DNA from: an uncultured Ruminiclostridium sp.
GTDB lineage: Bacteria > Bacillota > Clostridia > Oscillospirales > Ruminococcaceae
Assembly: GCA_947624435.1 (NCBI GenBank)
Contig: CANQKE010000024.1
Location: forward strand, 1-40,089
Length of the DNA: 40,089 bases
Direction of reading: 5' to 3'
Position 1 is the stretch's first letter. Every line of letters starts with the position of its first letter. Below are positions 18,100 to 40,089 of the stretch, piece by piece. The notes under the pieces were generated by a model that worked only from the letters and a program-made list of their open reading frames with translations, was not told where the DNA came from and made no database searches. The translations under genes were made by a program, and so were the position numbers.

Positions 18100-18110
18100 G
18101 TCGAAAAACG

Positions 18111-21187: not shown

Positions 21188-21195
21188 AGAATTAA

Positions 21196-21211
21196 GTTTG
21201 TCTTAACTAAC
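21196..21211. promoter_or_regulatory. feo palindrome 5 (GTTTG-N6-CTAAC)
   Basis: GTTTG-TCTTAA-CTAAC, one base away from the locus pattern GTTAG-N6-CTAAC, between the feo terminator and the HMA gene. It probably controls a second iron-regulated transcript. The promoter here is unclear: TTGAGA at 21185-21190 or TTGTCT at 21198-21203 could be -35 boxes, with no good -10. Confidence 0.45.
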
Positions 21212-21250
21212 TATCTTGTACTAAATCAAAAGAAAGGGGCTGCTTGTATC

Positions 21251-21646: not shown

Positions 21647-21666
21647 TTTTCGGGAAAGGAAAGTGA

Positions 21667-21942: not shown

Positions 21943-21957
21943 TGCCGACGCGTTTTT
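21922..21957. terminator. Bidirectional terminator between convergent genes
   Basis: AAAAAAC-A-CGTCG (21922-21934) faces CGACG-C-GTTTTTT (21946-21958) with one mismatch. T-runs flank both sides, so it can stop both the DUF2325 transcript and the minus-strand MATE transcript. It overlaps the last codons of the DUF2325 gene and the stop of the MATE gene. Confidence 0.8.
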
Positions 21958-23330: not shown

Positions 23331-23350
23331 AAAAGCCTCCTATAACTTGA

Positions 23351-23393
23351 TATGCGGGTTCGCCGATTTGCAGGCGTTAATTATCCCCGCATA
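23351..23393 (-). promoter_or_regulatory. Hairpin in the start region of the MATE transcript
   Basis: TATGCGGG (23351-23358) is the perfect inverted copy of CCCGCATA (23386-23393), with a short CGCC/GGCG stem inside. It begins a few bases after the minus-strand -10 box, so it would form the 5' end of the mRNA or serve as an operator. No known riboswitch was recognised. Confidence 0.4.
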
Positions 23394-23395
23394 AA

Positions 23396-23424
23396 GTTAT
23401 AGCATAGAAACCGATAAATGTCAA
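23396..23424 (-). promoter_or_regulatory. Promoter of the minus-strand MATE gene
   Basis: Read on the minus strand: TTGACA (23424-23419), 17-base spacer, TATAAC (23401-23396). Confidence 0.83.
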
Positions 23425-23454
23425 GCAACATAGCTTTAATTCGTTAAATATGTA

Positions 23455-23483
23455 TTGACTTTTCATTTTGGAGGTGATATAAT
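23455..23483 (+). promoter_or_regulatory. Promoter of the glycan biosynthesis cluster
   Basis: TTGACT (23455-23460), 17-base spacer, TATAAT (23478-23483). It is the only strong promoter seen before a run of closely spaced + strand genes that extends past the window end. It is divergent from the MATE promoter, with 30 bases between the two -35 boxes. Confidence 0.87.
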
Positions 23484-23489
23484 AAACAT

Positions 23490-23697
23490 GTGCGTTTTCG
23501 TTAATTTTTTAGTTTGCGATAACATCGACAGGAGGCTGCTCCGGAGAGCTCATTTCGAAAACATAATAAGGGAATGATTCAAATGTCTTTTTCCGGAAAG
23601 CGGTATATCCTCCTCTCCGGAGTGAAACACTATTTTAATCTTTCGTTAATTTTATCAATTACGAAAAATTTCGGCGGTTTTATGCCGTGTTTAAGCC
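23490..23697 (+). promoter_or_regulatory. Long structured leader of the glycan cluster
   Basis: About 200 untranslated bases. A perfect 10-bp inverted pair, CTCCGGAGAG (23539-23548) and CTCTCCGGAG (23613-23622), encloses 64 bases that contain a smaller CTTT-TTCCGG-AAAG element. GGAGG (23531-23535) and CCTCC (23609-23613) can lengthen the stem irregularly. No terminator-like T-tract follows. Long leaders on polysaccharide operons often carry antitermination signals; that role is inferred. Confidence 0.5.
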
Positions 23698-25314
23698 ATG
23701 AGAACTGAGCTTTTCAACTTTGCGCTTATCCCGCACGAAGGCGCTCAGGAGCTGTATTATCGCACCGACGAGTTCAAAACGGAAAACGGCGGACTTTCAG
23801 CTGATAAGCCCGGCGCGTCGGTCACGTTTGACACATATTTTAATTTGATCTCTGTAGGGAAAATGCGGCGGTACTGCGATATTTTGGCGATAAGCTGTGA
23901 GGCGATATTCACCGGTGCGCTGCGCTTTGAAATTTTTGCTGACGACGGGAAATTACTTTCCAACGGAACAAACGGCGTTTCGGTAAAGCTTGCCGACGTT
24001 CCCGACAATGCCGAGTATCTGTATCTGAAGCTTACCGCGCTGTCCGAGAATGTCGGGATAGAAAAAATAACCGTGCTTGCGGAATGCGAAAACGTTCGCA
24101 AAATACTCCCCGCAATAGTGATATGCACATATCATCGTGAGCAATTTGCCAAGAAAAACGCGTCCCTACTTGCGGAATATTTGCGAAAAAGCGGCACTTC
24201 CGGGCAGGTCATAGTGGTAGACAACGGCAGGACGCTGACAGATTTCTCTGACGAGAGAATAACGCTTATCCCGAATGAGAACACCGGCGGCAGCGGCGGA
24301 TTCGGTAAAGGAATGGAGTACGCCGCGCAGCACGGGTTCACACATATTGTCCTTATGGACGATGACGTGGAATTTGAGCCGGTATCGTTTCAAAAGCTGT
24401 TCGGCTTTTTGAAAACCGCAAAGAATGAGGATATCAGCGTCGCGGGAACCATGCTGTTTTCGGACGAGCCGACAAGGTGCTTTGAATCCGGCGGATATTT
24501 CGATACCGCAAGCGGCGTTCAAACGGGGTTTTCCTACGGACTGGATATGACAAAGCCGGAAAATCTGTATTTGAACGAACAGGAAAAGAAGATAAATTAC
24601 GGCGGCTGGTGGATGTTCTGTATGCCGTCAAAATATGCCGAAAGCGGGCTGTTGCCCATGCCGTTTTTCATAAAATACGACGATGTGGAATATGCGCTAC
24701 GCTGTAAAATGAACATCGTCACTTTGAACGGAGTTGGTGTATGGCACGAGAGGTTCGACGGAAAATACAACTCCGATTCCGAGTATTACAATGTGAGAAA
24801 TTTTCTGCTGCTGCGCAGTCTGCATGGAGGGATATCGCCGAAAGAGGCAAAGAAATTCGCGCGTTGGCGGGTTCGCGAAAAGCTGTGCTGCCAGCAGTAC
24901 GATATGGCGTATGCCGCGCGGCTGGGCTATCGGGATCATCTAAAGGGTACGGCGTTTTTAGAGAAACTTGACCCGGAGAAAAATCACGAACAAATACGCA
25001 AGCTGAACTACCCTATGCTGGACGAAAATACGCTTTACGACAAGTACGGGGTGAGATTTTCACAGGAAAAGCTGGACTTGTCGCAGCAAGCCGTTCCGTC
25101 GTTTTTCAAGAAGATATTGTTGTACGGACATTTGATACCGAATTGTTTTTGCAAGAAAGATCATGCCGTGACAGATATCTTTTTTGACCGAAAGGAAATG
25201 TACTTCGGCTATAAGACCGCGCTGCATTTTGACAGTCGGACAGGCAGAGGGTATATGACGAAGAAAAGCTTGAAAAATTTTATATTATATAAATTCAAAA
25301 GAGGTACAAAATGA
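23698..25314 (+). CDS. GlfT2-like galactofuranosyltransferase (GT2)
   Basis: A 538-residue glycosyltransferase. Residues ~1-135 form an N-terminal beta-rich domain like that of mycobacterial GlfT2. The GT2 catalytic domain follows: VICTYHREQ, NENTGGSGGFGKGM, the metal-binding DDD at 221-223, YGGWWMFCMP near 301, KYDDVEYALR near 326 (second acidic pair, catalytic base) and GVWHERFDGKY near 348. This motif series is specific to the UDP-galactofuranose transferase group. It ends in a basic tail (LKNFILYKFKRGTK). No Shine-Dalgarno is visible before ATG 23698, unusual here. It overlaps the next gene by 4 bases (ATGA). The acceptor is unknown; no glf mutase gene is in the window. Confidence 0.85.
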   Translation: MRTELFNFALIPHEGAQELYYRTDEFKTENGGLSADKPGASVTFDTYFNLISVGKMRRYCDILAISCEAIFTGALRFEIFADDGKLLSNGTNGVSVKLADVPDNAEYLYLKLTALSENVGIEKITVLAECENVRKILPAIVICTYHREQFAKKNASLLAEYLRKSGTSGQVIVVDNGRTLTDFSDERITLIPNENTGGSGGFGKGMEYAAQHGFTHIVLMDDDVEFEPVSFQKLFGFLKTAKNEDISVAGTMLFSDEPTRCFESGGYFDTASGVQTGFSYGLDMTKPENLYLNEQEKKINYGGWWMFCMPSKYAESGLLPMPFFIKYDDVEYALRCKMNIVTLNGVGVWHERFDGKYNSDSEYYNVRNFLLLRSLHGGISPKEAKKFARWRVREKLCCQQYDMAYAARLGYRDHLKGTAFLEKLDPEKNHEQIRKLNYPMLDENTLYDKYGVRFSQEKLDLSQQAVPSFFKKILLYGHLIPNCFCKKDHAVTDIFFDRKEMYFGYKTALHFDSRTGRGYMTKKSLKNFILYKFKRGTK

Positions 25315-27212
25315 AGAAGATAAAGCTGTTGGTGTGCTATCATAAGCCGGATACTTTGATAAAAAACGAGGTTTTTACGCCTATACATCTGGGTCGTGCG
25401 ATAGCAAAGAAAGAGATGAAGCCGGACGATCCAAAGCTGAAATGGCTGCTGGATAACATGATAGGCGATGATACCGGAGATAATATTTCCGAGCTTAACC
25501 GCACATATAACGAGCTTACCGCTCTTTACTGGGCGTGGAAGAATTACGATAAGCTGGACGATCCCGACTATATCGGGCTTATGCACTACCGGCGGCATTT
25601 CGTGTTCAACGAGGGCGAGATAAAGGTTTACGAGATACCGGAAATGGAGTCGGAGCATTATCCCGAGATACTGAATTTTGACCCCGAGCGGCTTTCAAAG
25701 GAGCTGGAAAGCTGCGATTTTGCCTGCCATCTCGGCAAGGTGGACGGTATATATAAGCACTATCTTGCAAATCACCGCATAGAGGATATGGAGCTTGCGC
25801 TTAAGCTGCTCAAAGAAATGTACCCGCAGTATTCCAGAGCGGCGGACGAATATATGATGCAGGACGTGGGAAATTTCTGCAATATGTTCATCTTTCCGAA
25901 GCAGCTGTTTTTTAAGTATTGTGAGTTTATCTTCAGCATACTGGAGGAGTTCCGCAAGAGGACGGATATTTCCGAAAAGCGCTTTTTCATCTCGGAGCGT
26001 CTGACCGGAATTTTCATCTATAAAATGATGAAAGAGGGCAAGAAGTACAAGGTATATCCAATAAATTTCGTGTCGGAAAATATCAACATTCCTATAGCTT
26101 ACCCTATAAACAAGGACAACCTATTTGCGACCGAGGTTTCAATGATCTCCGCATTAGAAAAGGCAAAGAAAGGCACATCGTTCACCTTTTACCTTATTCA
26201 CGGGGAGGATATTACCGAGCAGGATAAGAACAATCTCGAAAAGCTGACCGAGCTGTACGATATCTGCAAGATAGAGTTTATCAGCTCCGAGCTTGAGCAG
26301 AAATATTATCCGCTGGAAATATCCGAGCGCCTGCCAAAGGTGAAGAAGCTGATATATTTTAATGAAAAAACCATAGCTATGCACGATCTCGGCGAGTTTT
26401 ACCGCACCTGCAGCGTTGATGATTATTATATCAGCGGATTGCCGGAGGACGTGGTGACAAATGTTTCCGCCGACAGAAAATTATCAAATGATATTTTCGT
26501 GATAAACGCCGACCGATTCAGAAAGCACGATATCTATAATAAGGCAAAGCCGTTCATCGGCAATAAATCACCGGAAAATATCATTAATCTTCTATGCGAG
26601 GATCAGATAGGATTTTTCGCGGAGTGGTTCATCACCCAGGCGGGAACGGTAAAGGAATATGATCTGCCGATTTTCTCAAAGTACAAAAACCGAGGGCAGT
26701 ACCAGCTTGAGGCAACGTGGCGTCCGGTGCTGTATTTCGGCGAGAATGAGCCGTGGGCTAACGTGCAGGGCGTGTACAGTAATTTTTGGTGGAACTGCGC
26801 AGTAGATTCGCCGATGTGGTTTAGATTCCCGACAGTTAAAACCGCCGCTGCCGTAAAGCAGCTTAACGATCAGCAAAAAGAGCTTAATCATTTAGGAGAG
26901 ATAACCCGCAGAATGTGCGGCGACGACCTTGCCTTGACTTTATCTCTTCCTAAAGTCAATACTCTGGAAGTCAGGGTTGATTCTCGCAAAGAAAAGATTG
27001 CAGTTCAGCAAATCGCAGTCAGAGATAAAGCGGTTGAAGATGTTACAGAACAAAATCAAAACGTTTTGTCTCCGGCGCAACAGCCGCTCGTTGTGATAGG
27101 TTCATCTGAATACGGAAAGTTATCTCTTTTTGGAAAGGCCAAAGTGTATCTAAAAACATATGGCTTGAAAATGACCATAAGAAAAATTTTTCAAAAACTT
27201 TTCGGAAAATAA
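25311..27212 (+). CDS. DUF4422 plus degenerate GT8-like glycosyltransferase
   Basis: A 633-residue two-part protein. Residues 1 to ~255 match DUF4422: VCYHKPD, ELTALYWAWKN and IGLMHYRRHF. This family is a putative glycosyltransferase module. Residues ~270-450 follow the GT8 layout, but the usual DxD at YLDADxVV is replaced by YFNEKTIA (F350-N351-E352), so this half probably cannot bind metal and nucleotide sugar in the normal way. A Trp-rich segment at about residues 480-500 (YSNFWWNCAVDSPMWFRFP) follows. The tail ends in the basic amphipathic LKMTIRKIFQKLFGK. ATGA overlap with the upstream gene implies translational coupling. Specific sugar unknown. Confidence 0.75.
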   Translation: MKKIKLLVCYHKPDTLIKNEVFTPIHLGRAIAKKEMKPDDPKLKWLLDNMIGDDTGDNISELNRTYNELTALYWAWKNYDKLDDPDYIGLMHYRRHFVFNEGEIKVYEIPEMESEHYPEILNFDPERLSKELESCDFACHLGKVDGIYKHYLANHRIEDMELALKLLKEMYPQYSRAADEYMMQDVGNFCNMFIFPKQLFFKYCEFIFSILEEFRKRTDISEKRFFISERLTGIFIYKMMKEGKKYKVYPINFVSENINIPIAYPINKDNLFATEVSMISALEKAKKGTSFTFYLIHGEDITEQDKNNLEKLTELYDICKIEFISSELEQKYYPLEISERLPKVKKLIYFNEKTIAMHDLGEFYRTCSVDDYYISGLPEDVVTNVSADRKLSNDIFVINADRFRKHDIYNKAKPFIGNKSPENIINLLCEDQIGFFAEWFITQAGTVKEYDLPIFSKYKNRGQYQLEATWRPVLYFGENEPWANVQGVYSNFWWNCAVDSPMWFRFPTVKTAAAVKQLNDQQKELNHLGEITRRMCGDDLALTLSLPKVNTLEVRVDSRKEKIAVQQIAVRDKAVEDVTEQNQNVLSPAQQPLVVIGSSEYGKLSLFGKAKVYLKTYGLKMTIRKIFQKLFGK

Positions 27213-27226
27213 AAGGAGTGACATAA

Positions 27227-29164
27227 ATGGCTATAGTGTCTGTACTTATACCAGTATATAACGTTGAAAAATATCTGAAGCAGTGCCTTGACAGCGTGAT
27301 CGGTCAGACTTTTTCGGATATAGAGATAATATGCGTTGATGACGGTTCAACTGACCGCAGCGCATCTATTTTGAAGAAATACGCCAAAAAGGACAAGCGC
27401 ATAAAAATAATAACCAAAAATAATGGTGGACTTCCTTCAGCACGTAATGCCGGTATAAATGCCGCTACCGGAGAGTATGTATCTTTTGTCGATGCGGATG
27501 ACTATATTCAGCCGGACATGATCAAAAAAATGCTGATGGCGGCCGTAAAAGATAATTCCGAAATAGTTATCTGCGGGGCGAATGTTTTTCCGCGCGATCC
27601 TGCGCCGGACGGTTGGCTTGATTGGGTGCTTTCACCGGAGAACGCTTACTATGAAACCGGCGACGAAAAGCTGTTGTTTGAAAATCATGCCTCGCGTCCG
27701 TTTATCTGGCGGACGTTCATGAAAAGGGAACTGCTTACCCGCAATAAATTCCAGCTTAATGAGGATATACACGTCGGCGAGGATAACGCGTTCCAGTTCA
27801 GGATATATCCGAAAGCAAAAGGTATAACGCTGATTTCCGATAAGCTGTACAATTATCGCTGGTACCGCGAGGATTCGCTGATGAATTCCATCGTGTATAA
27901 AAACGTTGAGAAGAAGTGCCTGGCGCATATAAAGATGGTGCTTCATGTTGCGCAGGAATGGATAAGATCCGGCGACATGAAAAAGATGGGTAAAGATTTT
28001 CTTAGATGGAGCGTTGAATTTTTATACGACGATTTTATCAAGATGCCGCTCAACGAAAGAGCAGAAAACGCAAAGCTGCTTACTAAAGTATGGACCGACG
28101 GAGGATTTTACAAATATGAATACAGTTTTCCGGATCATATACGGGACATGTTCAAGTATTTTTACACCGTTGCCGAAGAAAAGCCTTTTAAGTGCGATGT
28201 GTCCGTGATAATAAGCGCCGACTGCGATCACACCTATTTCGAGCAGACGATAGAAAGCTGTCTTGGGCAGGATCATAAAAACTTTGAGCTGATAATTATA
28301 AATAACGGAGCGAGCGCTTCAACATATTCTGTTATTCATAAATATCTTCACAAGGATAAGAGGGTACGGGTATACAACACGTCAAAAAGTCATTATACCG
28401 ACGGATATAATACAGGTATCGGGCTGAGCGCCGGAGATTATCTTCTGTTTGTAAGACCTGACGACTGGCTGGAGGATAAAAACGTATTATCCGAGTGGCT
28501 CGGTACGGCAAAAAGGGAAAAAGCAGATGTATGCCTCAGCCTTAACAAGGAACTTGACAGCATGTATTATTCCGGAGCACCGGCAAAGTATGATGACAAC
28601 GACAGCACATATTATCTGGAGTGCGTGTTGGGAAACGCGATGTTCCGCAAAAAATTCGTTGTAGATAAAAAGCTGGAATTTACGGATTATTCCATAGAGA
28701 GCGGCAAGGTGTTTTTATCCGCCGCTTGTCTGACGTCCGGCAAGATTGTAGTCGTCGATAAGCCGATGTATGTGTCAAGAAACGTATATAAGCAAGACTG
28801 GATCCCTACCGGAGAATGCGTAAAAGTATTAAAGTCCTTTGCCGACAGACTGGAGCTTGCCCAAAAATATAGATCTGCCGAGCTTCACAATAAGATATTC
28901 TCGCTTTTGGTCAGCGATTATTACATGAATCTGCTTATCAATAATACAAAGCCGTATTTCATGACGGTGCAGGAGTGTCCCAACGGCGAAAACAGCCAGT
29001 CGGAAACATTCGAGCAGATAATACGAATACTTAACCTGATAGACCCACAGCTGCTGCCGAAAGAGGACGGAATATCCCCGACGCTTCCGTCGTTCTTTGC
29101 AAAATTTGTAGACGGACGCCATAAGTATATCGGCGACGTTTCGGATGAATATCTGAGAGTATGA
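27227..29164 (+). CDS. Two-domain GT2 glycosyltransferase
   Basis: A 645-residue protein with tandem GT-A folds. The first (residues ~3-230) is a canonical GT2: VSVLIPVYNVEKYLKQCLDS, VDDGSTDRS, then VDADDY with the D89-A90-D91 metal site. The second (from ~325) starts VSVIISADCDHTYFEQTIES and keeps the fold pattern (IIINNG, YNTGIGLSAGDYLLF), but its metal site reads RPDD (410-413), so it may be weak or non-catalytic. AAAAGGAG precedes ATG 27227, 14 bases after the previous stop. It has no basic C-terminal tail, unlike its neighbours. Donor and acceptor unknown. Confidence 0.85.
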   Translation: MAIVSVLIPVYNVEKYLKQCLDSVIGQTFSDIEIICVDDGSTDRSASILKKYAKKDKRIKIITKNNGGLPSARNAGINAATGEYVSFVDADDYIQPDMIKKMLMAAVKDNSEIVICGANVFPRDPAPDGWLDWVLSPENAYYETGDEKLLFENHASRPFIWRTFMKRELLTRNKFQLNEDIHVGEDNAFQFRIYPKAKGITLISDKLYNYRWYREDSLMNSIVYKNVEKKCLAHIKMVLHVAQEWIRSGDMKKMGKDFLRWSVEFLYDDFIKMPLNERAENAKLLTKVWTDGGFYKYEYSFPDHIRDMFKYFYTVAEEKPFKCDVSVIISADCDHTYFEQTIESCLGQDHKNFELIIINNGASASTYSVIHKYLHKDKRVRVYNTSKSHYTDGYNTGIGLSAGDYLLFVRPDDWLEDKNVLSEWLGTAKREKADVCLSLNKELDSMYYSGAPAKYDDNDSTYYLECVLGNAMFRKKFVVDKKLEFTDYSIESGKVFLSAACLTSGKIVVVDKPMYVSRNVYKQDWIPTGECVKVLKSFADRLELAQKYRSAELHNKIFSLLVSDYYMNLLINNTKPYFMTVQECPNGENSQSETFEQIIRILNLIDPQLLPKEDGISPTLPSFFAKFVDGRHKYIGDVSDEYLRV

Positions 29165-29202
29165 GCGTTGACGTTTGTAATTTGATTCTAGGGTGATTGC
29201 TG

Positions 29203-31533
29203 ATGGCTAGTAATATAGAGAAAGTTAATAAAAATGAATGTACCGGCTGCGGTGCGTGTTATAATCTCTGCCCGGTGAATGCTATAACGATGGAGCCGGA
29301 CGGAGAGGGCTTTCTTTTCCCGTCGGTAAACAAGGAACTGTGTACGACATGCGGGCTGTGCTACAGCAAATGTCCTGCCGAGGGCGGCGTTTATCCCGTC
29401 AGCGGTAATGGTGACGTGTATGCCTGCTGGGCGGAAGATGACATTCGCATGAAGAGTTCATCCGGCGGAGTTTTCAGCATACTGTCAAAGTATATCCTCT
29501 CTCAGGGAGGAGCTGTTGCCGGAGCAGCATGGAGCGACGATTACAAGGTAAAGCATATAATTATCCGAAGTGAGGACGAACTGGACAGACTCAGAGGTTC
29601 AAAATACCTCCAAAGCGATGTCGGAAGCGTATACTCCGAGATAAAAGCGTTACTGGAAAAAGATGTTCCTGTGCTTTTTTCAGGCTGTCCCTGCCAGGTA
29701 GCAGGGTTGTATGCAGCTGTCGGAAAGCAATATAAAAATTTGTTTACGGTAGATATTGTCTGTCATGGCGTGCCTTCTCCAAAGGCGTTTGATAAATATA
29801 TAGAGGAACTGGACAAAGGCAAAAAACCGCAGAATGTGGATTTTCGTGATAAAAAGCGCGGATGGGGAACATACAGCAGTATAATTCTGAACGATGGTAC
29901 AGAGTATTTTGAAAACTGCCGTGAGGATCCTTACTATATCGCTTTTTTGAACAGTATAAGTACCCGGCGTTCCTGCGCGAAATGCAAATATTCCTCTCCG
30001 GAAAGGATAGGAGATATAACGCTGGGAGATTTTTGGGGAATATCCGAAATTGATCCCTCTTATAACGACGGTAAGGGAACCGGTTTGGTTATTGTCAACA
30101 CCGAAAAAGGCATGGAGATTTTTGAAAAAATTTCTCCGCTTCTTAAAATGGTCAATAAGGTTTCGCGAGAGCGTACTCTAGAGATAGCCAAACGCAAAAA
30201 TGGGCAGCTTATGTTTCCGAGACCTATGCACAAAAATCGCGACGCTTTTTTTGCAAATTTGGATAAGCTGCCGTTTTCCGAGGCTGCGTATTCGGCCGCC
30301 GAAAAAAAGTACGATGTCGGCATAGTCGGTTGGTGGTATAACGAAAATTACGGCGGCACCCTTACGTATTTCGCTTTGCATCAGATTTTAAGAAGTATGG
30401 GGTTGTCTGTTCTTATGATAGAAAAATCCGCTCCCGACGGATATGTTCCGAATCAGGATACCGTGCCGAGAAGATTTGCCGCTAAGCATTACAAGATAAG
30501 TAATGTTTATCGGAATAATAAAATGGGTGAACTGAACGAAAAATGCAGCGCTTTTGTTTCAGGCTCGGATCAGCTTTTTAATCCGGCGTTGTGGCAATAT
30601 TCCGGTCCGCAGTATTTTTTGGATTTTGCATCTCCTGAAAAACGTCTGGTATCCTACGCTTCCTCATTCGGCAATACGATAAAATGTTCCGATAAGCATA
30701 AAATGATGATGTCGTATTTTCTGCATAGGTTCGATGCGATCTCGGTCAGAGAAGATTATGCCGTAGATTTGCTGTCGGATAATTTCGGGTTGAAAGCTAA
30801 GAAGGTGCTTGATCCGGTATTCGTGTGCGACCCTAACGAGTATCATCGGCTTGCTGAAAGCTCGCAGGTCAAGCCGGAAGAGAAGTACCTTGTAAGTTTT
30901 ATTCTTGACCCGGACGCGCAGAAAAAACAGGCTATCCTTTATTTGTCCGAGAAATTGGGATTGCCGTATGTAAATCTTCTTAACGCTGTGAATATTGAAG
31001 AAAATTCACGTAAGCTTGGTCTGGACAATATTAAGCCGGGAATAGATATAGAGGATTTTCTCAGTTATTACAAAAACGCAGATTTTATAATTACAGATTC
31101 TTTCCACGGCACCTGCTTTGCGATAATTTTTCAAAAGCCGTTTATTTCAATATCTAACAAAAAGCGCGGAGCAGGGCGTTTTGCTTCAATGCTGGACGAG
31201 CTCGGGCTTATTGACAGAATGGTAGAGAATATTTTCGATATTGAAAAAAAGCCCGAGTTACAGGAGAATATCGATTATTCATATACATCGGCCCGTTTGT
31301 CTGTTCTAAGGAAAGATTCTTATGAATGGTTGAGAAATGCGATTACTGCGCCGTTTGACAAAGCCGGAAATGAGTTCAATATTTTGGACAACAAGATAAA
31401 TAAATTAGTCAATACCGTTTGGGAGTTGAACGCTCAGATAAACAGCTTGAAGCAGGATTTGAACAAAAACAGTATGCTGCGGCCGCGTAAAGGTATAATT
31501 CAAAGGATAAAAAGCAAGCTAAGACGCAATTGA
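29203..31533 (+). CDS. FrhB-type Fe-S flavoprotein fused to polysaccharide pyruvyltransferase
   Basis: A 776-residue fusion. Residues 13-60 hold two 4Fe-4S motifs, CTGCGACYNLCP (C13, 16, 19, 23) and CTTCGLCYSKCP (C47, 50, 53, 57). Residues ~80-345 match the beta subunit of F420 hydrogenase/dehydrogenase (FrhB): SSSGGVFSIL, GSKYLQS, VLFSGCPCQVAGL, IVCHGVPSPKAF, CAKCKYSSPERIGDITLGDFWG. Residues ~370-720 match polysaccharide pyruvyltransferases: GIVGWWYNENYGGTLTYFAL, SGSDQLFNP, ISVRE, TDSFHGTCFA. The C-terminus is a short coiled coil and the basic GIIQRIKSKLRRN. Start ATG 29203 with AGGGTGA is preferred to TTG 29197. Likely transfers pyruvate from PEP to a sugar; the redox half's role is not known. 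Confidence 0.87.
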   Translation: MASNIEKVNKNECTGCGACYNLCPVNAITMEPDGEGFLFPSVNKELCTTCGLCYSKCPAEGGVYPVSGNGDVYACWAEDDIRMKSSSGGVFSILSKYILSQGGAVAGAAWSDDYKVKHIIIRSEDELDRLRGSKYLQSDVGSVYSEIKALLEKDVPVLFSGCPCQVAGLYAAVGKQYKNLFTVDIVCHGVPSPKAFDKYIEELDKGKKPQNVDFRDKKRGWGTYSSIILNDGTEYFENCREDPYYIAFLNSISTRRSCAKCKYSSPERIGDITLGDFWGISEIDPSYNDGKGTGLVIVNTEKGMEIFEKISPLLKMVNKVSRERTLEIAKRKNGQLMFPRPMHKNRDAFFANLDKLPFSEAAYSAAEKKYDVGIVGWWYNENYGGTLTYFALHQILRSMGLSVLMIEKSAPDGYVPNQDTVPRRFAAKHYKISNVYRNNKMGELNEKCSAFVSGSDQLFNPALWQYSGPQYFLDFASPEKRLVSYASSFGNTIKCSDKHKMMMSYFLHRFDAISVREDYAVDLLSDNFGLKAKKVLDPVFVCDPNEYHRLAESSQVKPEEKYLVSFILDPDAQKKQAILYLSEKLGLPYVNLLNAVNIEENSRKLGLDNIKPGIDIEDFLSYYKNADFIITDSFHGTCFAIIFQKPFISISNKKRGAGRFASMLDELGLIDRMVENIFDIEKKPELQENIDYSYTSARLSVLRKDSYEWLRNAITAPFDKAGNEFNILDNKINKLVNTVWELNAQINSLKQDLNKNSMLRPRKGIIQRIKSKLRRN

Positions 31534-31551
31534 TTGGATGGTGAAAACTAT

Positions 31552-34500
31552 ATGGTCGGCAATTCTAATAATATAAAATTATCTATTATTGTACCTTGTT
31601 ATAATGTTGAAAATTATATAAGAAAATGCTTGAGTTCTATTGTAGATCAAACATTAAAAGAAATAGAGATAATTTGCGTTAATGACGGCTCTACTGATAA
31701 TACATTGAATATTATTTCGGAATTTGCCGGAAAGGATGAACGGATTTTTGTTATAGATAAGCCTAACTCCGGTTACGGGGATTCGCTAAATACAGCTATA
31801 TCCGAAGCATCGGGCGAGTATATAGGCATAGTAGAGAGTGATGATTTCGCAGAGTCCGAAATGTTTGAAACTCTTTATAATAAAGCAAAAGAATATGATG
31901 CTGATGTTGTTAAGTCGAATTTCTGGTTATATTGGGGAACTGAAGACAGAGATGATTTTTTCGAGTGTTTGCATAAGGACGAATGTAATAAAATAATCGA
32001 CCCGTTATTGCATGACAATGGTTCCTTTTATAACAGAAAGGCCAGTGTATGGTCTGCAATATATCGCAGAAAATATTTGACGGATAACAAAATTCGATTT
32101 TTAACAACGCCAGGCGCATCATTTCAAGATATTTCATTTACGTTTAAGGTGTTATCAACCACAAAAAAGATGGTGTGCGTTTATGAGCCGTTTTTGCATT
32201 ACAGGCAGGACAACGCAAGTTCTTCTATAAATAACGTAGAAAGAAAAATTCCATATTTTTTGAAAGAATATGATGAGGTTATAAATTTTATCAATGCTGC
32301 AAATTATGGAAAAGAGCACCTTTTTTCACTATACTGTTCACAATTTTACGATAATTGCTTATATATATATGAACGTTCCGACCCGGTAAGCAGATATCCT
32401 TTTCTTAAAATCGTTTCGGATAAATTTAAAGATATTTTATCTGAGATTGACCCCGAAAAGATAAATTTCGGCGATTGTTGGTGGAAAAGACGAGATATTG
32501 TCAGAATAGCCGAGGATCCATATCAATATCATATGTGGCGCAATGATGAACGATATGACCAGAAAAAAGGTTCTATACGTTGCGCAAACCCCGATATACC
32601 TGTAGGAACGATCGTTTATCCTGACGGTTATAAGGATAGTACCCGACCGACTTTTTCTGTTATTATACCGATATTTAATGTGGAAAAATTTTTGCCGTCC
32701 GCCCTGGAAAGTTTGCTGTATCAAACATATAAAGACCTTGAGATAATATGCATCAATAACGGTTCAACCGATAATTCGCTGTCGATAATTAAAGCATATT
32801 CTAAGATTGACAAAAGAATTATCATTATAAATCAAGAACATAGTTCTCTCGCTGCTGCCAGAAACAATGGAATGGATATTTCCAAAGGCAATTACGTTGT
32901 TTTTTTAGATGGTGATGATTATTTGTCTGAAAATACATTTGAAATTTTGAGCAGAGTAATAATAGAAAAAAACGATCCGGATATGATCGAATACGGCTCT
33001 ACGCCCTTTCCGAAATCTCCGGCAGCAAGTAAATGGCTGTATGATATATTGACTACACCGGATGATTTTTATTATAAAATTGATCAGACCACATTTCTAA
33101 AAACCGGTTTTTTGAAGGTTTTTTGCTGGAGATACTGCATAAGATCCCAATTTATAAAAGAGCGCCATATAACGTTCCCGACGGAATTGATATTTGGCGA
33201 GGATGCCATATTTGTAATGCACTGTCTTATGCAGGCGACAGGTGTTGTAATAATATCCGACAAACTTTATTTTTATCGGCATAACAGAAGCGATTCTTTT
33301 TCCACTACTATTTATAAAGATAGTGAGTTGTATGCAAAGCTACAATTTATGATACTCGAAAGAATGCTGAAAGATGCTTTTTCACTTTTCGAATTTGAAA
33401 AATCACCTTCCTTGTTTGAATATTGCAGTTATTTTATTGAAGGTTGTCTGAATGGTTTGAGCCGATCTTCAAAAGTAAATTATATAACGAAATTTTTATC
33501 TTTAATGAAAGAATACGGACTTGATCAGTGTGTTTACAACTGTTCGCAAAACAGGCAGAATTTTTACAATCACTGCTTGGAAACAGTAAAAGAAGAAAGC
33601 CGAGAAAAGGAGGCAAAAGCTGTGGCTGTAACTGTTGTTTTGGTCGACAAAAATATATGCACCGGCTGCGGCGCGTGTTATAATATATGTCCGGTAAATG
33701 CGATAAGAATGGAGTCGGACAGCGAGGGGTTTTTGTGTCCGGTAATAAAAGACGATATATGCACTTCCTGCGGGCTTTGCTACAACAAATGTCCTGCAGT
33801 AAATGAAGATATATATTTTAATAATGCGCAGCCGGAGGTTTATGCCGCTTACGCTCCCGATGAGATACGTATGGAAAGTTCTTCAGGCGGTATGTTTACC
33901 GTACTTGCCGAGCATATCATTGATAAAGGCGGGTATGTAGCCGGGGTACGCTGGGACGAAAAATTCAGTGCGGTTTTTGATATAGTCGAGAAAAAAGAAG
34001 ATCTCGCTTTAATGAGAGGTTCTAAGTATGTGCAGAGCAGTACGGGGTTGATCTTCCGCAAGATAAAACAATTGCTGAATGACGGTAAAACAGTACTCTT
34101 CACGGGCGTACCTTGCCAGACAGCCGGTTTAAGACATTTTCTCGGAAAAGATTACGACAACCTTTATATAGTGGATATTTTGTGTCACGGTTCACCATCG
34201 CCGAAATCGTTTGAAGAATTTTTGAAATGCGCAGTCAATTCTATCGAAGGCAATGACGATATATCTCAGATAGAAAGCATAGAATTCAGGAACAAGCATA
34301 GGCACGGTTGGGGACACTCCATTATTATCAAATTAAAGAACGGCATGGAATATGACAAGACGCGTAATGCGACCAACTGGTACAACAGCTTTTTGAATAT
34401 TCTGAACTGTCGCAGAGTGTGCGGGCAGTGCAGATACAACACGCTGCCGCGACAGGGCGATATAACGCTCGGAGATTTCTGGGGCATAGAATCGGTCATG

Positions 34501-35883
34501 CCGGACAGCAATTATCACAAAGGTGTAAGCGTAGTTACTTTGAACAACGAAAAGGGTCAGAGGCTTTTCGGCGAAATATCGGATAAGCTGGAATTCAAGC
34601 GCCAAAGCAATATTGACGACGCAAAAAAAGGAAACTGGAATCTTGTCGGCTCTTCAAGAGCGCATAAATTCAGAAATGATTTTTTCCGTTTGCTAAATAT
34701 GTACGGCAACTTTGAAAAAGCGACTGAATACGCTCTTAACCGTAAATTTGATATAGGCTTCATAGGCTGGTGGTACGGTGAAAATTACGGCAGTATCCTG
34801 ACCAGCTTTGCACTTCATCAATATCTGAAAAGCCGCAATAAACGCGTATTGATGATTGAATGGCCGCTGAGAAGCAAGGACGTACACGTAAATAAAAATA
34901 CGATATCAAGAAGACTTGCCTCCAGATATTATGAGGTAAGTATAGACAGGACGTTTGATGAGCTGCATGATCTGAATTGGTTTTGTGATGCGTTTGTACT
35001 GGGTTCAGACCAGCTGTGGAATTATTGGAGCTCTCGAGAAGTGGACTATTTTTATTTTCTTGATTTTGCAGAGGACGCAAAGAAAAAAATAGCTTATTCA
35101 ACCTCTTTCGGACATAGAGAATTTGAGGCGCCGACATGGTATCTTAAAGCTGCTTCGTATCATATGAGCAGATTCGACCATATTTCGGTAAGAGAAAACG
35201 AAGGTGTAGAGCTTTGCCGCAATGTGTTCGGCGTAGACGCAGTAAGAAATATAGACCCAGTATTTATCTGCGATAAACAGGAATATTTAAGTCTTGCGGA
35301 ACAGAGTAAGCTGGATACAGGCGAGAAGTATATCTTTGCATATGTTCTGAATCCTACTCCGGAAAAGCGTCAGGCGCTGATAGAATTATCTCAGAAGAGC
35401 GGTTTGGGGATAAGGCTTGTCCTTGACAGACAGTTTGATTCTCAAACAAACCGCAGCATAATGGACATGGATAATAATATAATAGTCCCGCAGGAGATAG
35501 AAGACTGGCTTAAGCTTATCATAAATGCGGATTATGTTTTCACGGATTCGTACCACGGAACTTGCTTTTCATTGATATTTAATAAACAATTTAGTTGTAT
35601 CGGCAATATGCTCAGAGGTGTCTTCAGATTCACCACCTTGTTGGATTGTGCGGGACTGTCAGACCGCCTTTTGTTCGACCCGCTTAAGGTTATTGACCAG
35701 TACGAGCAGGTTATCAATTACGACGAAGTGAATGCCAGATTGAATAATGATATAGAACGTTCGCGCCGGTGGCTCAATAACGCGTTGGATTCCCCAAAAT
35801 TTTTAAGATCCTCTGGATATGATTTGTTAATTGATAAAATACGGGAATTGCAAAAGCAAATAGATGAGCTTAAGAGAAAATAA
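31552..35883 (+). CDS. GT2-GT2-FrhB-pyruvyltransferase four-part fusion
   Basis: A 1443-residue protein. GT2 domain A (residues ~6-230: IIVPCYNVENYIRKCL, VNDGSTDN, VESDDF). GT2 domain B (from ~365: VIIPIFNVEKFLPSAL, INNGSTDN, LDGDDY). A linker follows, then two 4Fe-4S motifs beginning at C703, an FrhB module (~760-1040) and a pyruvyltransferase module (from ~1066: IGFIGWWYGENYGSILTSF, ending in TDSYHGTCFS). The second half is a clear paralogue of the protein at 29203. The C-terminus is a short coiled coil (IDKIRELQKQIDELKRK). ATG 31552 is chosen with GGATGGTG upstream; TTG 31534 has no ribosome binding site. The first half is strikingly AT-rich. A Shine-Dalgarno/GTG pair lies at the junction (33607-33624). 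Confidence 0.88.
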   Translation: MVGNSNNIKLSIIVPCYNVENYIRKCLSSIVDQTLKEIEIICVNDGSTDNTLNIISEFAGKDERIFVIDKPNSGYGDSLNTAISEASGEYIGIVESDDFAESEMFETLYNKAKEYDADVVKSNFWLYWGTEDRDDFFECLHKDECNKIIDPLLHDNGSFYNRKASVWSAIYRRKYLTDNKIRFLTTPGASFQDISFTFKVLSTTKKMVCVYEPFLHYRQDNASSSINNVERKIPYFLKEYDEVINFINAANYGKEHLFSLYCSQFYDNCLYIYERSDPVSRYPFLKIVSDKFKDILSEIDPEKINFGDCWWKRRDIVRIAEDPYQYHMWRNDERYDQKKGSIRCANPDIPVGTIVYPDGYKDSTRPTFSVIIPIFNVEKFLPSALESLLYQTYKDLEIICINNGSTDNSLSIIKAYSKIDKRIIIINQEHSSLAAARNNGMDISKGNYVVFLDGDDYLSENTFEILSRVIIEKNDPDMIEYGSTPFPKSPAASKWLYDILTTPDDFYYKIDQTTFLKTGFLKVFCWRYCIRSQFIKERHITFPTELIFGEDAIFVMHCLMQATGVVIISDKLYFYRHNRSDSFSTTIYKDSELYAKLQFMILERMLKDAFSLFEFEKSPSLFEYCSYFIEGCLNGLSRSSKVNYITKFLSLMKEYGLDQCVYNCSQNRQNFYNHCLETVKEESREKEAKAVAVTVVLVDKNICTGCGACYNICPVNAIRMESDSEGFLCPVIKDDICTSCGLCYNKCPAVNEDIYFNNAQPEVYAAYAPDEIRMESSSGGMFTVLAEHIIDKGGYVAGVRWDEKFSAVFDIVEKKEDLALMRGSKYVQSSTGLIFRKIKQLLNDGKTVLFTGVPCQTAGLRHFLGKDYDNLYIVDILCHGSPSPKSFEEFLKCAVNSIEGNDDISQIESIEFRNKHRHGWGHSIIIKLKNGMEYDKTRNATNWYNSFLNILNCRRVCGQCRYNTLPRQGDITLGDFWGIESVMPDSNYHKGVSVVTLNNEKGQRLFGEISDKLEFKRQSNIDDAKKGNWNLVGSSRAHKFRNDFFRLLNMYGNFEKATEYALNRKFDIGFIGWWYGENYGSILTSFALHQYLKSRNKRVLMIEWPLRSKDVHVNKNTISRRLASRYYEVSIDRTFDELHDLNWFCDAFVLGSDQLWNYWSSREVDYFYFLDFAEDAKKKIAYSTSFGHREFEAPTWYLKAASYHMSRFDHISVRENEGVELCRNVFGVDAVRNIDPVFICDKQEYLSLAEQSKLDTGEKYIFAYVLNPTPEKRQALIELSQKSGLGIRLVLDRQFDSQTNRSIMDMDNNIIVPQEIEDWLKLIINADYVFTDSYHGTCFSLIFNKQFSCIGNMLRGVFRFTTLLDCAGLSDRLLFDPLKVIDQYEQVINYDEVNARLNNDIERSRRWLNNALDSPKFLRSSGYDLLIDKIRELQKQIDELKRK
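33607..33624 (+). promoter_or_regulatory. Internal Shine-Dalgarno and in-frame GTG at the fusion junction
   Basis: AAGGAGG (33607-33613), 8-base spacer, GTG (33622-33624), in frame with the surrounding gene at codon 691. The GTG lies 12 codons before the first Fe-S cysteine, the same distance as the start codon of the separate FrhB-pyruvyltransferase gene at 29203. It could start a 753-residue FrhB-pyruvyltransferase protein independently. Confidence 0.7.
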
Positions 35884-35902
35884 TTATCAATCGGAGGAAA
35901 AG

Positions 35903-38701
35903 ATGGGAAAATTTAGAGTAATATTATTTACTGAAACATGGGAATTGGAAAAAGCGATCTCTTTATTAAACGGTTCTTTAATTAAAGGGGACGTTGAAAT
36001 TAACGGATTTACGTCATTGAAAGAATGGGCTTTTTCAAAGATATGCAATTATAATTTTATTCCTTACAACAAGTTGAAAGAAGTAGACTATGACTATATT
36101 ATTGCTTGCGATTTTTCTGCCGACTGTCCGTTAAAGGAAAAAATAATCAACCTTGGATTTGACAAACAAAAAATAATTAAGGGACGCATTATCGAAAATC
36201 CTTGTTTTGATATGTCGTATTATGACATGTTACACAAAGATCCGCCAAGCATAATTTCATCAACCTGTTTCGGAGGAGTAATATGTCATGATTTAGATCT
36301 TCCGTTTATGTCGCCATTTGTTAATCTTTTTGTTAATGATGATGAGTTTTATGAAATGTTGAAAGACTTAAAGTCAACTATAGATTCTCCTATTCAAGAA
36401 AAGATCAATACTGATAATAATATTAATTATCCGGTTGGTTTATTAAACAACGGTAAAAGTATAATAGAGGTTCATTTTAACCATTATAATAACTTTGATG
36501 AAGCAAAAAGAATTTGGGATAAGAGAAAGGAAAGAATCAACTATAACAATATTATTGTTACATCAATAATATGGAATCAAGAAAGCTTGAAAAAATTTCT
36601 GCAAATTACATATAAAAAAATAGGTTTCGCGTTTACTAAATTAGATCAGGAATATGACGATGTTCTTGACTGTACCATGTTTTTTGATCCGGATATTCGC
36701 AAAAAGACCTCTAACTATTATTGGAAGTTTTTGCATGACTCTTCATACGAAAACGAGAGAAGGCAGTTTCCGAGATTATATGATCCATATAAATTGCTGC
36801 TGAAAAAGACCGGTTGGAAATTATCACACGGAACTATTTTGAACAATAAAATTGATTTTCAAGAAGCCAACAGCGCTTTATCGAATTTACAAAATGTTGT
36901 AAATATAATGTTTTTAGATCTCGACGGAAGTTATCTTCCTTATTTATTTGTGTTGATAACCAGCTTGCTTGACAATCATTCTGATAGTACAAAATTCGTA
37001 TTTTTTCTCGGATATGTAAATACTCCTAAAGAAGAAATGGATAAATTAAAAAATTATGTAATCAGCAAAGGCGCTGAGATGTTTCTAATATATGCCGACA
37101 CTAGTGTGTTTGATGGATTTAAGAATTTCGGCAAAGGAGGACTGCATAATTACAAAATTTTCCCTCATCTTCTTTTGCCTGATACTGTTGACAGAGTTCT
37201 CGTCTTGGACACAGATATTGTAGTATGTGATGATATCCTTGATTTATATAATATTGATTTTTCCGAAAATGAATTATATGCTGCGGCGATTGACGGCGGA
37301 AATTCTCTTGAATATGTAAAGAATTATCCCTCGTCATCTCAAAATAAGCTTGATTTCGGCGTGAACTCCGGAGTATTAGTTGCAAATCTGGTACAATTAA
37401 GAAAAGAAAATTGTACAATTGATGCAATGGTAAAAAAGACGGGACTCCCCAAAAGCAGATTATGGGAGGAGGGAATATTATATTATGGATATAGGGATCG
37501 AATTAGACCGGTATATGACTTCAGATATAATTATAATATTTCCAGACATGACGAATATGTTGAGTTCTGCAAAAAAAATAAAGTGGAGTTTAATATAAAA
37601 ATAAGGCATTTTCATGTTTATACATATCCTATAAATTCATTTTTATATCGTCCCTGGCAGCTCTTTTTTGAAAACAACGAACGATTATTGTATAGTGACA
37701 ACGAACTTATTAATAGACGAATTCAGGATAATTTTTCATACTGGTGGTTTTATGCTAAAAAAAGCCCCAATTACGATATTCTTCGCAAAAACATGCTGGA
37801 AATCAAGGATTTGCATAAATTTGCAGCTTCAAATTATATCTTGAAATATACAAATAAGCTCTCTGCTCAAAAAGGGTGGTATTACAATAATTCTCTTTTC
37901 TTTGAGAAATTTACAAGCGACCTTCTTTATAGTCATTCGGCATACGATTTCATTATGGATATAAATAATAAACGTATATCTATAATTAAAAACAATACAT
38001 TAGTTGGTAAATTTGTACATGCTCTGTTAAAGAAAAACAATATTGAGATAATTTTTACAAGCGATAAAGATTCTATCAAAGATTTAAGTGAAACGGAGTG
38101 GAATGAATGCAAAAAAGCAGATATAATTATTAATTGCAATATTCACACAAATATAGACGATGAAAGAGACGGAATTGTATCGAAAAATATAAACTCTATT
38201 TTTAACAGCAAGAATATTGAGAATGATTTTAATAGTGATAATGGCTTGGATTTGTTTTCTAAAAAATCAGAAAATTCAAACGAAAGAGTGTTAAAAGAAC
38301 TTTCTGCTTTGAATGAACGAATTGAACAATTGGCTGATTATAAGATAAAATTCGAACATGAAATTGAAAAAAATACACAGATCAATAATTTGATCAATAC
38401 ATATAAAGCTGAAAACAGCAGCTGCCAGTCAAAAATAACAGATCTGCTTGAGTGCCAAACTAAACTTAATAAAACCATAAATGCTAATAATGCTCAGATT
38501 GCTTCTTTAAGTAATAACAATCAGGTTTTAACGGACAGTCTGTCAGAAGCCTCAATAAAATTATCCGAAATGAAGAAGCAAGTCGATGCGCTAGCTGCCG
38601 AGCGTGATAAGCTCAATGCCAGAATTTCCGCAATAGAGAATTCCCGTTCCTGGCGTTGGACGCGAATATTCAGAAGAAATAAAAAGGATGAAGAAATATG
38701 A
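35903..38701 (+). CDS. DUF1919-GT8 fusion with long C-terminal coiled coil
   Basis: A 932-residue protein. Residues 1-~105 are unrecognised. Residues ~113-230 match DUF1919 (TCFGGVICHDLDLPFMSPF, FVNDDEFYEML, YPVGLL, IEVHFNHYNNFDEAKRIW), a putative transferase found in capsule loci. Residues ~332-600 are GT8: MFLDLDGSYLPYLFVLITSL, DxD at D436-T437-D438, FGVNSGVLVANL and a late HFHVYTYP. A small unassigned domain (~680-765) and a coiled coil (~795-915) follow, ending in SRSWRWTRIFRRNKK, a motif often seen at the ends of glycan-assembly proteins. ATG 35903 with GGAGGAAA is chosen over ATG 35864, which lies inside the preceding gene. The DNA is strongly AT-rich. 4-base overlap with rfbF. Confidence 0.8.
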   Translation: MGKFRVILFTETWELEKAISLLNGSLIKGDVEINGFTSLKEWAFSKICNYNFIPYNKLKEVDYDYIIACDFSADCPLKEKIINLGFDKQKIIKGRIIENPCFDMSYYDMLHKDPPSIISSTCFGGVICHDLDLPFMSPFVNLFVNDDEFYEMLKDLKSTIDSPIQEKINTDNNINYPVGLLNNGKSIIEVHFNHYNNFDEAKRIWDKRKERINYNNIIVTSIIWNQESLKKFLQITYKKIGFAFTKLDQEYDDVLDCTMFFDPDIRKKTSNYYWKFLHDSSYENERRQFPRLYDPYKLLLKKTGWKLSHGTILNNKIDFQEANSALSNLQNVVNIMFLDLDGSYLPYLFVLITSLLDNHSDSTKFVFFLGYVNTPKEEMDKLKNYVISKGAEMFLIYADTSVFDGFKNFGKGGLHNYKIFPHLLLPDTVDRVLVLDTDIVVCDDILDLYNIDFSENELYAAAIDGGNSLEYVKNYPSSSQNKLDFGVNSGVLVANLVQLRKENCTIDAMVKKTGLPKSRLWEEGILYYGYRDRIRPVYDFRYNYNISRHDEYVEFCKKNKVEFNIKIRHFHVYTYPINSFLYRPWQLFFENNERLLYSDNELINRRIQDNFSYWWFYAKKSPNYDILRKNMLEIKDLHKFAASNYILKYTNKLSAQKGWYYNNSLFFEKFTSDLLYSHSAYDFIMDINNKRISIIKNNTLVGKFVHALLKKNNIEIIFTSDKDSIKDLSETEWNECKKADIIINCNIHTNIDDERDGIVSKNINSIFNSKNIENDFNSDNGLDLFSKKSENSNERVLKELSALNERIEQLADYKIKFEHEIEKNTQINNLINTYKAENSSCQSKITDLLECQTKLNKTINANNAQIASLSNNNQVLTDSLSEASIKLSEMKKQVDALAAERDKLNARISAIENSRSWRWTRIFRRNKKDEEI

Positions 38702-39474
38702 AAGCATTGATCTTAGCCGGCGGGTTCGGCACGCGCATAAGTGAAGAAAGCCATTTGAGACCCAAGCCGATGATAGAGATCGGGGAAAAACCGATACTCT
38801 GGCACATAATGAAAACCTATTCCCATTATGGGATAAACGACTTTGTGATACTCGCGGGGTACAAACAGCACGTTATCAAGGAATGGTTCGCGGACTACTT
38901 CCTGCATACCTCAGACGTGACGTTTGATTTCACGGCGGAAAACAAAATGACCGTGCATCATAAAAGCGCCGAGCCGTGGCGGGTGACCGTGGTGGATACA
39001 GGCCTTAATACCATGACCGGCGGGCGTGTTAAACGCGCTCAGGAGTATGTGGGCGATGAAACTTTCATGCTCACCTACGGCGACGCGGTGGGGAATATCA
39101 ACATATCCGAGCTGCTGGAATTTCATAAAGCGCACGGCAAGATAGGAACCGTGTCGGTGTATAACTTCGGGCAGGATAAGGGCGTGCTTGAAGTAGCGGA
39201 AAACGGCAAGGTAAACGCTTTTCGTGAAAAGTCCGACCTTGACGGCGACCTTATCAATATCGGCTTTATGGTGTTTGAACCTAAGGTTTTTGATTACATA
39301 GAGGGCGACAGCACCGTGCTTGAAAAAGACCCGCTGAATAAACTCGTAGAAATGGGCGAACTCAACGCGTATCTTCATAAAGGCTTCTGGCAGTGCATGG
39401 ACACTATCCGCGAAAAAGAAAAGCTGGAAAAACTCTGGAACAGCGGACAAGCCCCGTGGAAGGAGTGGGATTGA
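38698..39474 (+). CDS. rfbF: Glucose-1-phosphate cytidylyltransferase
   Basis: A 258-residue enzyme of the usual family length. It makes CDP-glucose from CTP and glucose 1-phosphate, the entry step to CDP-linked dideoxy and deoxy sugars. The nucleotide-binding start MKALILAGGFGTRISEESHL, then RPKPMIEIGEKPILWHIMK, and later TYGDAVGNI and the WQCMDTIREKEKLEKLW ending are diagnostic. It overlaps the upstream gene by 4 bases (ATGA) and rfbG by 1 base (TGATG), so it is translationally coupled to both. Base composition returns here to GC-richer DNA after the AT-rich glycosyltransferase genes. Confidence 0.95.
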   Translation: MKALILAGGFGTRISEESHLRPKPMIEIGEKPILWHIMKTYSHYGINDFVILAGYKQHVIKEWFADYFLHTSDVTFDFTAENKMTVHHKSAEPWRVTVVDTGLNTMTGGRVKRAQEYVGDETFMLTYGDAVGNINISELLEFHKAHGKIGTVSVYNFGQDKGVLEVAENGKVNAFREKSDLDGDLINIGFMVFEPKVFDYIEGDSTVLEKDPLNKLVEMGELNAYLHKGFWQCMDTIREKEKLEKLWNSGQAPWKEWD

Positions 39475-40089
39475 TGCTTGATTTCTACAAAGGTAAAAAA
39501 GTATTCGTTACCGGTCATACCGGCTTCAAAGGCTCTTGGCTTTGCAAGATACTGACAATGGCAGGCGCAGAAGTAACCGGCTATTCGCTGAATCCGCCTA
39601 CAGATCCCTCGCTGTTCGAGATAGCGAAGATAGGTGAGCATATAACCTCGGTTATCGGTGACATAAGCGATTATGACAAGCTGAAAGCGGCTTTTGATAA
39701 GGCGCAGCCGGAGATAGTGCTGCATCTCGCGGCTCAGCCTATCGTCCGCGACAGCTATAAAGACCCTGCCTACACCTATCGCACTAACGTTATGGGAACG
39801 GTGAATATCCTTGAATGTGTAAGAAACAGCAGCTGCGTTAAGTCTTTTCTGAACGTTACCACCGACAAGGTGTACAAGAATAAAGAGTGGGAGTGGGGTT
39901 ATCGCGAGAACGAAGAACTTGACGGCTACGACCCGTATTCAAATTCAAAATCCTGCTCCGAGCTTGTCACTCACAGCTACAAGAACAGCTTTTTTGAGGA
40001 CGGCAAAACCGCTATCTCTACCGCCAGAGCGGGCAATGTGATAGGCGGCGGGGATTTTGCAAACGACAGGATAATCCCGGACTGCGTGC
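39474..40089 (+). CDS. rfbG: CDP-glucose 4,6-dehydratase (partial, cut by window end)
   Basis: The first 205 codons of an NAD-dependent short-chain dehydrogenase/reductase-type enzyme. KKVFVTGHTGFKGSWL is the nucleotide-binding loop. LHLAAQPIVRDSYKDP, the TTDKVYKNKEWEWGYREN segment and the catalytic YSNSK (Tyr-x3-Lys) match CDP-glucose 4,6-dehydratases, which make CDP-4-keto-6-deoxyglucose. Full-length enzymes have about 360 residues, so the C-terminal substrate-binding part is missing here only because the window ends. AAGGAGTGG precedes ATG 39474, which overlaps the rfbF stop by one base. Steps after this (for example an RfbH-type dehydratase) should follow outside the window. Confidence 0.93.
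   Translation, partial: MLDFYKGKKVFVTGHTGFKGSWLCKILTMAGAEVTGYSLNPPTDPSLFEIAKIGEHITSVIGDISDYDKLKAAFDKAQPEIVLHLAAQPIVRDSYKDPAYTYRTNVMGTVNILECVRNSSCVKSFLNVTTDKVYKNKEWEWGYRENEELDGYDPYSNSKSCSELVTHSYKNSFFEDGKTAISTARAGNVIGGGDFANDRIIPDCV

Follow-up and report, generated by a model that had tools for sequence, protein, structure and literature searches.

Results

The subject of this analysis is a stretch of 40,089 nucleotides (nt) from an uncultured Ruminiclostridium sp. (positions 1 to 40,089 of contig CANQKE010000024.1, here called the window), and within it a single gene in which two glycosyltransferases (GTs) of the GT2 family are joined to an FrhB-type protein and a polysaccharide pyruvyl transferase (PSPT). 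On the forward strand the frame 31552-35883 is uninterrupted, and its product, with 1443 amino acids (aa) and a computed mass of about 167 kDa, has the order GT2-GT2-FrhB-PSPT, as the preliminary description of this DNA had it. The Pfam matches follow one another as two GT2 domains, a pair of Fer4 matches, FrhB_FdhB_N, FrhB_FdhB_C and PS_pyruv_trans, and, as far as such matches can tell, all the domains are intact. PF00535 is above its cut-off in two stretches (220.9 bits for the whole protein), FrhB_FdhB_N and FrhB_FdhB_C score 33.1 and 74.3 bits, and PF04230, the PSPT profile, is above its cut-off with 107 bits at residues 1078-1352. The pattern C..C..C...C occurs at residues 703 and 737 (two 4Fe-4S motifs), and in the GT domains we picked out by eye what we take to be DxD-like motifs. 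The open reading frame (ORF) delimited mechanically opens at TTG 31534; we took ATG 31552 as the start of the fusion. The parts of the gene, which we call the N-half and the C-half, are listed in Table 1 together with the surrounding features; other genes of the window are named by their first position.

Table 1. Coordinates of the fusion gene, its start sites and the surrounding features in the window (SD, Shine-Dalgarno sequence; GC3, GC content at third codon positions)
Feature	Position	Strand	Remarks
N-half, two GT2 (GT-A) glycosyltransferase domains	31552..33621	+	690 codons, GC 34.3%, GC3 0.319
C-half, two 4Fe-4S motifs, FrhB N/C and polysaccharide pyruvyl transferase	33622..35883	+	753 aa, 87 kDa if begun at the GTG
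Fusion start region	31534..31554	+	ATG 31552 with SD energy -11.4; TTG 31534 without SD (-0.4)
Shine-Dalgarno sequence AAGGAGG at the seam	33607..33613	+	duplex energy -12.2 kcal/mol
In-frame GTG, codon 691	33622..33624	+	12 codons ahead of the first Fe-S Cys; aligns with the ATG start of the orthologue
Double GT2 gene	27227..29164	+	last gene of the conserved upstream core; tail of its orthologue directly before the C-half orthologue in G048
Free-standing FrhB-PSPT paralogue	29203..31533	+	sister to a G018 copy; first Cys 12 codons after the ATG
Variable module	29165..38642	+	G031 identity stops at 29160; 82% G048 identity resumes at 38643
DUF1919 and GT8 gene	35864..38701	+	20-nt overlap with the end of the fusion; no SD (-0.7); GC 31%, GC3 0.30
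Glucose-1-phosphate cytidylyltransferase gene	38698..39474	+	TIGR02623 376.9 bits against a cut-off of 300.25; conserved right flank

The border between the halves carries the elements of a translation start site. The SD AAGGAGG is followed, after a spacer of 8 nt, by the in-frame GTG 33622, and this GTG stands as far ahead of the first cysteine of the C-half as the ATG of the free-standing paralogue 29203 stands ahead of its own. The preliminary description had pointed out both the site and the equal distance, and our coordinates agree with it. A Shine-Dalgarno sequence and a start codon in register, the latter matched by the start of an orthologue (see below), are thus all found at one place inside the frame. 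Measured as duplex energy with what we take to be the anti-SD sequence, the seam SD (-12.2) is no weaker than the SD that precedes ATG 31552 of the fusion (-11.4) or the SDs of the four nearest free-standing genes (-10.2 to -10.8). To judge how rare such a site is, we sampled 251 ORFs, drawn from the window together with 400 kb of the genome it belongs to, and left the fusion out; they were delimited mechanically as hardly overlapping frames of at least 200 aa, a few of which may be non-genes. Among their 81,713 internal codons, 4,296 of which are in-frame start codons, an SD of at least the seam's strength precedes such a start codon 10 times, and the exact AAGGAGG does so once. We also considered the bare motif AAGGAGG-N8-GTG as evidence and rejected it, with 8 places in the genome and 9 for the reversed control being the level of chance. 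It is the strength of the SD and its position on the exact codon where the orthologue begins, not the count of the bare motif, that make the seam site noteworthy. The RNA structure predicted at the seam is ordinary (z -0.21), and counts of promoter-like sites (29, with 20.7 expected, standard deviation (sd) 4.8) and terminator-like sites (11, with 5.8 expected, sd 3.0) in 29000-36200 carry no clear information. No comparable start site was found at any of the eight PSPT-FrhB fusion seams in the genus, where the best energy in the 40 codons scanned ahead of the Cys is -6.2.

The C-half has its nearest relative in G048 (contig L031), an uncultured Ruminiclostridium metagenome-assembled genome, with 79-80% identity in FrhB and 65% in PSPT. 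In that genome the counterpart of the C-half stands as a gene of its own, encoding 754 aa, with CAGGAGG, 9 nt and an ATG at the codon that matches GTG 33622, again 12 codons ahead of the first Cys. The gene adjacent to it upstream ends in the tail of a 27227 orthologue (65% over 55 aa, E 9e-25, by alignment). We compared the leaders of 27 free-standing FrhB-first genes. In 10 of them an in-frame ATG precedes the first Cys by exactly 12 codons, although in some of these the mechanical ORF opens a few codons earlier; in the others the leader has ATG at 11 codons (three genes), TTG at 13 (one), ATG at 9 (one) or exceeds 50 codons (12). The four nearest free genes, namely those of G048, G013 and G018 and the window's own 29203, all have the 12-codon leader and all begin with ATG. 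FrhB-only paralogues (L031_+2475, L084_+11593, L089_+3849) and L061 are absent from this tabulation; in another comparison the L121 row (G493) was disregarded, the longest ORF taken there probably not being the matching gene.

In the tree of 39 FrhB domains the fused C-half is sister to G048 (support 100/99) and next to the free G013 gene (100/98), and the window paralogue 29203 is sister to a G018 copy (100/99). The trees contain the three FrhB-only paralogues; L032 (the window itself) and L061 (a partial ORF), as well as duplicates and matches of less than 250 aligned residues, were not carried over. With the C-half placed beside free-standing genes, first that of G048 and then that of G013, the fused state must be regarded as derived. 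Between the C-half and its G048 orthologue the nonsynonymous divergence (dN) is 0.218, and the synonymous divergence (dS) is saturated, 70 of 179 fourfold sites being identical. With the C-half as query we saw no fusion of the same order in other genomes, either among 71 genomes of the genus (E <= 1e-60) or among 396 sampled genomes of the family (E <= 1e-85), and the N-half searches of genus, family and class reported below added none. Family and class were sampled, with scoring limited to the top 2-4 candidates of each genome. None of 1058 matching plasmid records covers 80% of the four-domain query, and no viral relative of the C-half was found. A long-standing fusion shared by all relatives and lacking an SD at this place, which the preliminary description had named as speaking against its own proposal, is excluded; the fusion was seen in no other searched genome.

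The N-half is matched in 8 of the 71 genus genomes (E <= 1e-50), but close full-length matches (44-46%) come only from the window's own genome and G013; these two are also the only ones in the 396 family genomes (E <= 1e-70, best 2-4 candidates per genome). In 391 sampled genomes of the class (E <= 1e-80) there is, beyond the own genome, one match, in G493, with 34% identity over residues 9-582. The G013 copies adjoin each other (L080:6718-13958), one being free and the second fused to PSPT-FrhB. The free one has 766 aa and is 46% identical to the N-half, and past the shared block it carries a C-terminal tail of about 85 aa that is absent from the fusion. The fused one (L080:9033-13958, 1641 aa, GT2-GT2-PSPT-FrhB) is 44% identical to the N-half in its double GT. 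The comparison with relatives that the preliminary description had called for thus finds the C-half as a separate gene in G048 (L031) and a close free double GT in G013. The two halves of the window gene also differ in composition: GC3 is 0.319 in the N-half and 0.459 in the C-half. The best change point falls at codon 661, and its 3-unit interval of 630-759 contains the seam (690/691); none of 1000 shuffles gave as strong a change.

The comparison of whole loci places the fusion in a variable region. The window from 13655 to 29160 is 93.6% identical over 15.5 kb to G031:C7 (L113-L115), and this identity, which spans the conserved upstream core (23698, the DUF4422 gene 25311 and 27227), ends at the last codons of 27227. 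The alignment marks this point as a sharp border of module exchange in the glycan cluster. Past it, G031 has other genes, which encode a PSPT-FrhB protein of 1480 aa and a glycosyltransferase of 1013 aa and show only scattered domain matches of about 68%. In G048:C25 the window finds, on one contig and in the same orientation, 72.9% identity over 33643-35600 and 82% at 38643-40085. The slot directly behind 27227 is filled by the C-half orthologue in G048, and by a gene of the 29203 type in the window and in G018:C11. On these comparisons, the region between the conserved flanks is a swapped glycan-biosynthesis module. Gene 35864, which comes next after the fusion, is probably translationally coupled to the fusion, as its overlap with it and the lack of an SD of its own suggest.

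Discussion

We propose that the gene is a derived in-frame fusion that arose in an exchangeable glycan module and inherited the start site of the resident gene at its seam, and we regard this as probable. Its C-half would come from a free-standing FrhB-PSPT gene, as indicated by both the tree and the match of the start sites, and this resident gene would once have lain behind the 27227 orthologue, as it does in G048. An AT-rich double GT2 gene, probably together with an FrhB-PSPT gene of the 29203 type, may then have been inserted upstream of it, and the right edge of the insert would have fallen in frame just before the resident SD, giving one protein of 1443 aa. Such a fusion would tether two glycosyltransferases to an Fe-S/FrhB-pyruvyltransferase pair, and as the seam site is intact by sequence, ribosomes may additionally make a protein of 753 aa. 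Judged by its register and its counterpart in the orthologue, the SD/GTG at the seam is the inherited start site of a once separate gene.

The preliminary description had offered two readings, one in which two genes fused recently by loss of a stop codon and left a start site behind, and one in which the cell makes both proteins from one gene. The free orthologue in G048 and the tree sustain part of the first, namely that the halves were once separate, that the fused state is derived and that the GTG and its SD are inherited. Simple loss of a stop codon is poorly supported, because the C-half gene of G048 lies behind the 27227 orthologue and not behind this double GT, because the free double GT of G013 has a tail that is missing from the fusion, and because the base composition shifts near the seam. 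We found no genome, among those searched, in which the two halves are neighbours but still separate. An insertion or a recombination event in front of the resident SD would fit these data better than the loss of a stop codon. The fusion is probably young, with the contrast in composition and the single occurrence suggesting recency.

Several observations weigh against this scenario. The fusion is known from one genome only, and the insertion route draws on a single relative that has the resident arrangement and a single close free double GT. The genus also has free double GT2 proteins that are more distant, about 715-840 aa long and 32-34% identical over about 580 residues. The synonymous sites between the C-half and G048 are saturated, so that the split is old and the fusion may fall anywhere on that branch. 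The interval of the change point is wide (129 codons), and the neighbouring gene 35864 is as AT-rich as the N-half. The bare SD-GTG motif is no more frequent genome-wide than its reversed control, and the eight PSPT-FrhB seams without such a site tell us that a start site at the seam is no general rule. Finally, of the nine genes set against G031, one (21068) shows a difference in frame.

Whether the seam start is used is a separate question. The seam site may work, so that one gene yields both the fusion of 1443 aa and an FrhB-PSPT protein of 753 aa, for example to keep the free form in excess of the tethered one. We see close to an even chance of this, because the SD at the seam is no weaker than the one at ATG 31552 and the RNA around it has no unusual structure. 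The site also retains its start codon, its spacing and its register, and its SD equals or surpasses those of the four nearest free genes. On the other hand, a used site and a recent fossil look alike in sequence, the seam has GTG where those four genes have ATG, and the paralogue 29203 already provides a free-standing FrhB-PSPT protein. There is a precedent in Cas11, which is made from the cas8 transcript by an internal in-frame start in other type I-B, I-C and I-D systems (PMC13199841). Such a site need not work: the start of Cas11 within cas8b1 of T. maritima was inactive in E. coli (PMC13199841). The seam start would resemble that of Cas11 in that the C-terminal part becomes a separate subunit (PMC13199841); the proteins are unrelated, and initiation was reported for Cas11, whereas the seam start is a candidate read from the sequence.

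Alternatively, the fusion may simply be too young for the old start site to have decayed, the site being unused or irrelevant. This is a serious possibility, if one that falls short of even. It is consistent with the different composition of the halves, with the restriction of the fusion to one genome, with a module that is swapped relative to G031 despite the 93.6% identical left flank, and with the absence of such a site from the eight other seams. When a start codon lies at the right distance from a strong SD, some initiation is expected unless translating ribosomes occlude the site, and this speaks against a pure fossil. We offer only tentatively, at somewhat below an even chance, the idea that the fusion has been caught in a two-product state, in which a four-domain protein and a free two-domain enzyme would be made in a ratio set by two starts of similar strength. 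If this is true, the shuffling of modules before resident starts would be a route by which tethered enzymes are tested while the free one is kept.

It is improbable that two separate genes were falsely joined by a base error or a misassembly that masks a stop codon near 33560-33606. Stops are present in the alternative frames around the seam, and gene 21068 could point in this direction, but the GT matches to G013 stay in frame up to codons 675-690 of 690, eight of the nine window genes compared match G031 over the full window length without a frame break, and the seam is over 6 kb away from the nearer end of the 40-kb contig. An ancestral fusion that was later split in the relatives is very improbable: fission is possible in principle, and G013 too has GT-GT joined to PSPT and FrhB, but its fusion has the opposite order and an FrhB apart from the C-half, the C-half is nested among free-standing genes, and fission alone would not create an SD and start like those of the other free genes.

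The inherited-start fusion can be compared with other arrangements of the same domains. The free FrhB-PSPT genes (G048/L031, G018/L084, G013/L081 and the window's 29203) resemble the C-half in domains, domain order, 12-codon leader and SD, and unlike the fusion they are not attached to glycosyltransferases. The 1641-aa fusion of G013 contains the same double-GT family and the same two partner domains. However, it has the partners in reverse order, an FrhB of another lineage, a GT-PSPT linker of about 45 residues and no start site at the seam, and it therefore arose independently. Because its FrhB falls into the PSPT-first clade (100/100), the same partners have been fused at least twice, in opposite orders. 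This points to a functional coupling of double GT2 proteins with FrhB-pyruvyl transferase pairs in these glycan loci. Elsewhere, several plasmids (Bacteroides finegoldii, Klebsiella aerogenes, Pseudobutyrivibrio) carry FrhB-type and pyruvyl-transferase genes near each other, and one report lists both kinds with the Klebsiella cps genes (PMC4616057). In the glycan loci of these other bacteria the two are annotated as separate genes, unlike in the fusion. In an unannotated record of Phocaeicola massiliensis (H2) one tblastn piece spans query residues 703-1428, and a two-domain FrhB-PSPT frame may exist there.

From the names of its domains, the likely work of the fusion is to assemble and pyruvylate one surface-glycan repeat and, via Fe-S/FrhB, to reduce or oxidise it. 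The label of an F420-dependent enzyme was considered for the C-half and rejected. In the 99.96% complete genome (G000), which encodes at least three FrhB-type proteins, there is no match to PF01996 (F420 ligase) or TIGR01819 (CofD), two profiles that both match in control genomes; thus 'F420' in the domain name is not to be read as the cofactor here. The cofactor of the FrhB-type proteins of this genome is probably not home-made F420, which suggests a type of FrhB that works in a cell without detected genes for F420 synthesis.

To our knowledge, intermediates of gene fusion are seldom caught. In the present case one can see the ancestral start, the free orthologue and the exchanged module, and also that the same partners were fused independently elsewhere, so that the step from two genes to one, perhaps by way of a two-product intermediate, is directly testable. 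In the open-licence literature we found neither a GT2-FrhB-PSPT fusion nor a gene fusion paired with internal initiation. Another case of one gene with several products is Spa33 of Shigella, whose second start is reportedly internal and in frame. Multiple proteins from this one gene have been described (PMC6925163), as proposed here for the fusion; Spa33 is unrelated and shows no visible gene fusion.

Further observations concern the window and its relatives more broadly. The G031 counterpart of window gene 21068-21646 is split over two frames, with the break near residues 37-41, as expected if either genome has a frameshift or a sequence error there. The window gene 6101-14152 encodes a large protein of 2683 aa that resembles surface adhesins and has eight SpaA prealbumin-like stretches. 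Very large fused glycan enzymes are encoded at L085:9561-14003 (1480 aa, PSPT-FrhB with an NAD-dependent epimerase-like part) and L086:6192-12170 (1992 aa), and these two proteins suggest that multi-enzyme fusion is common in the genus.

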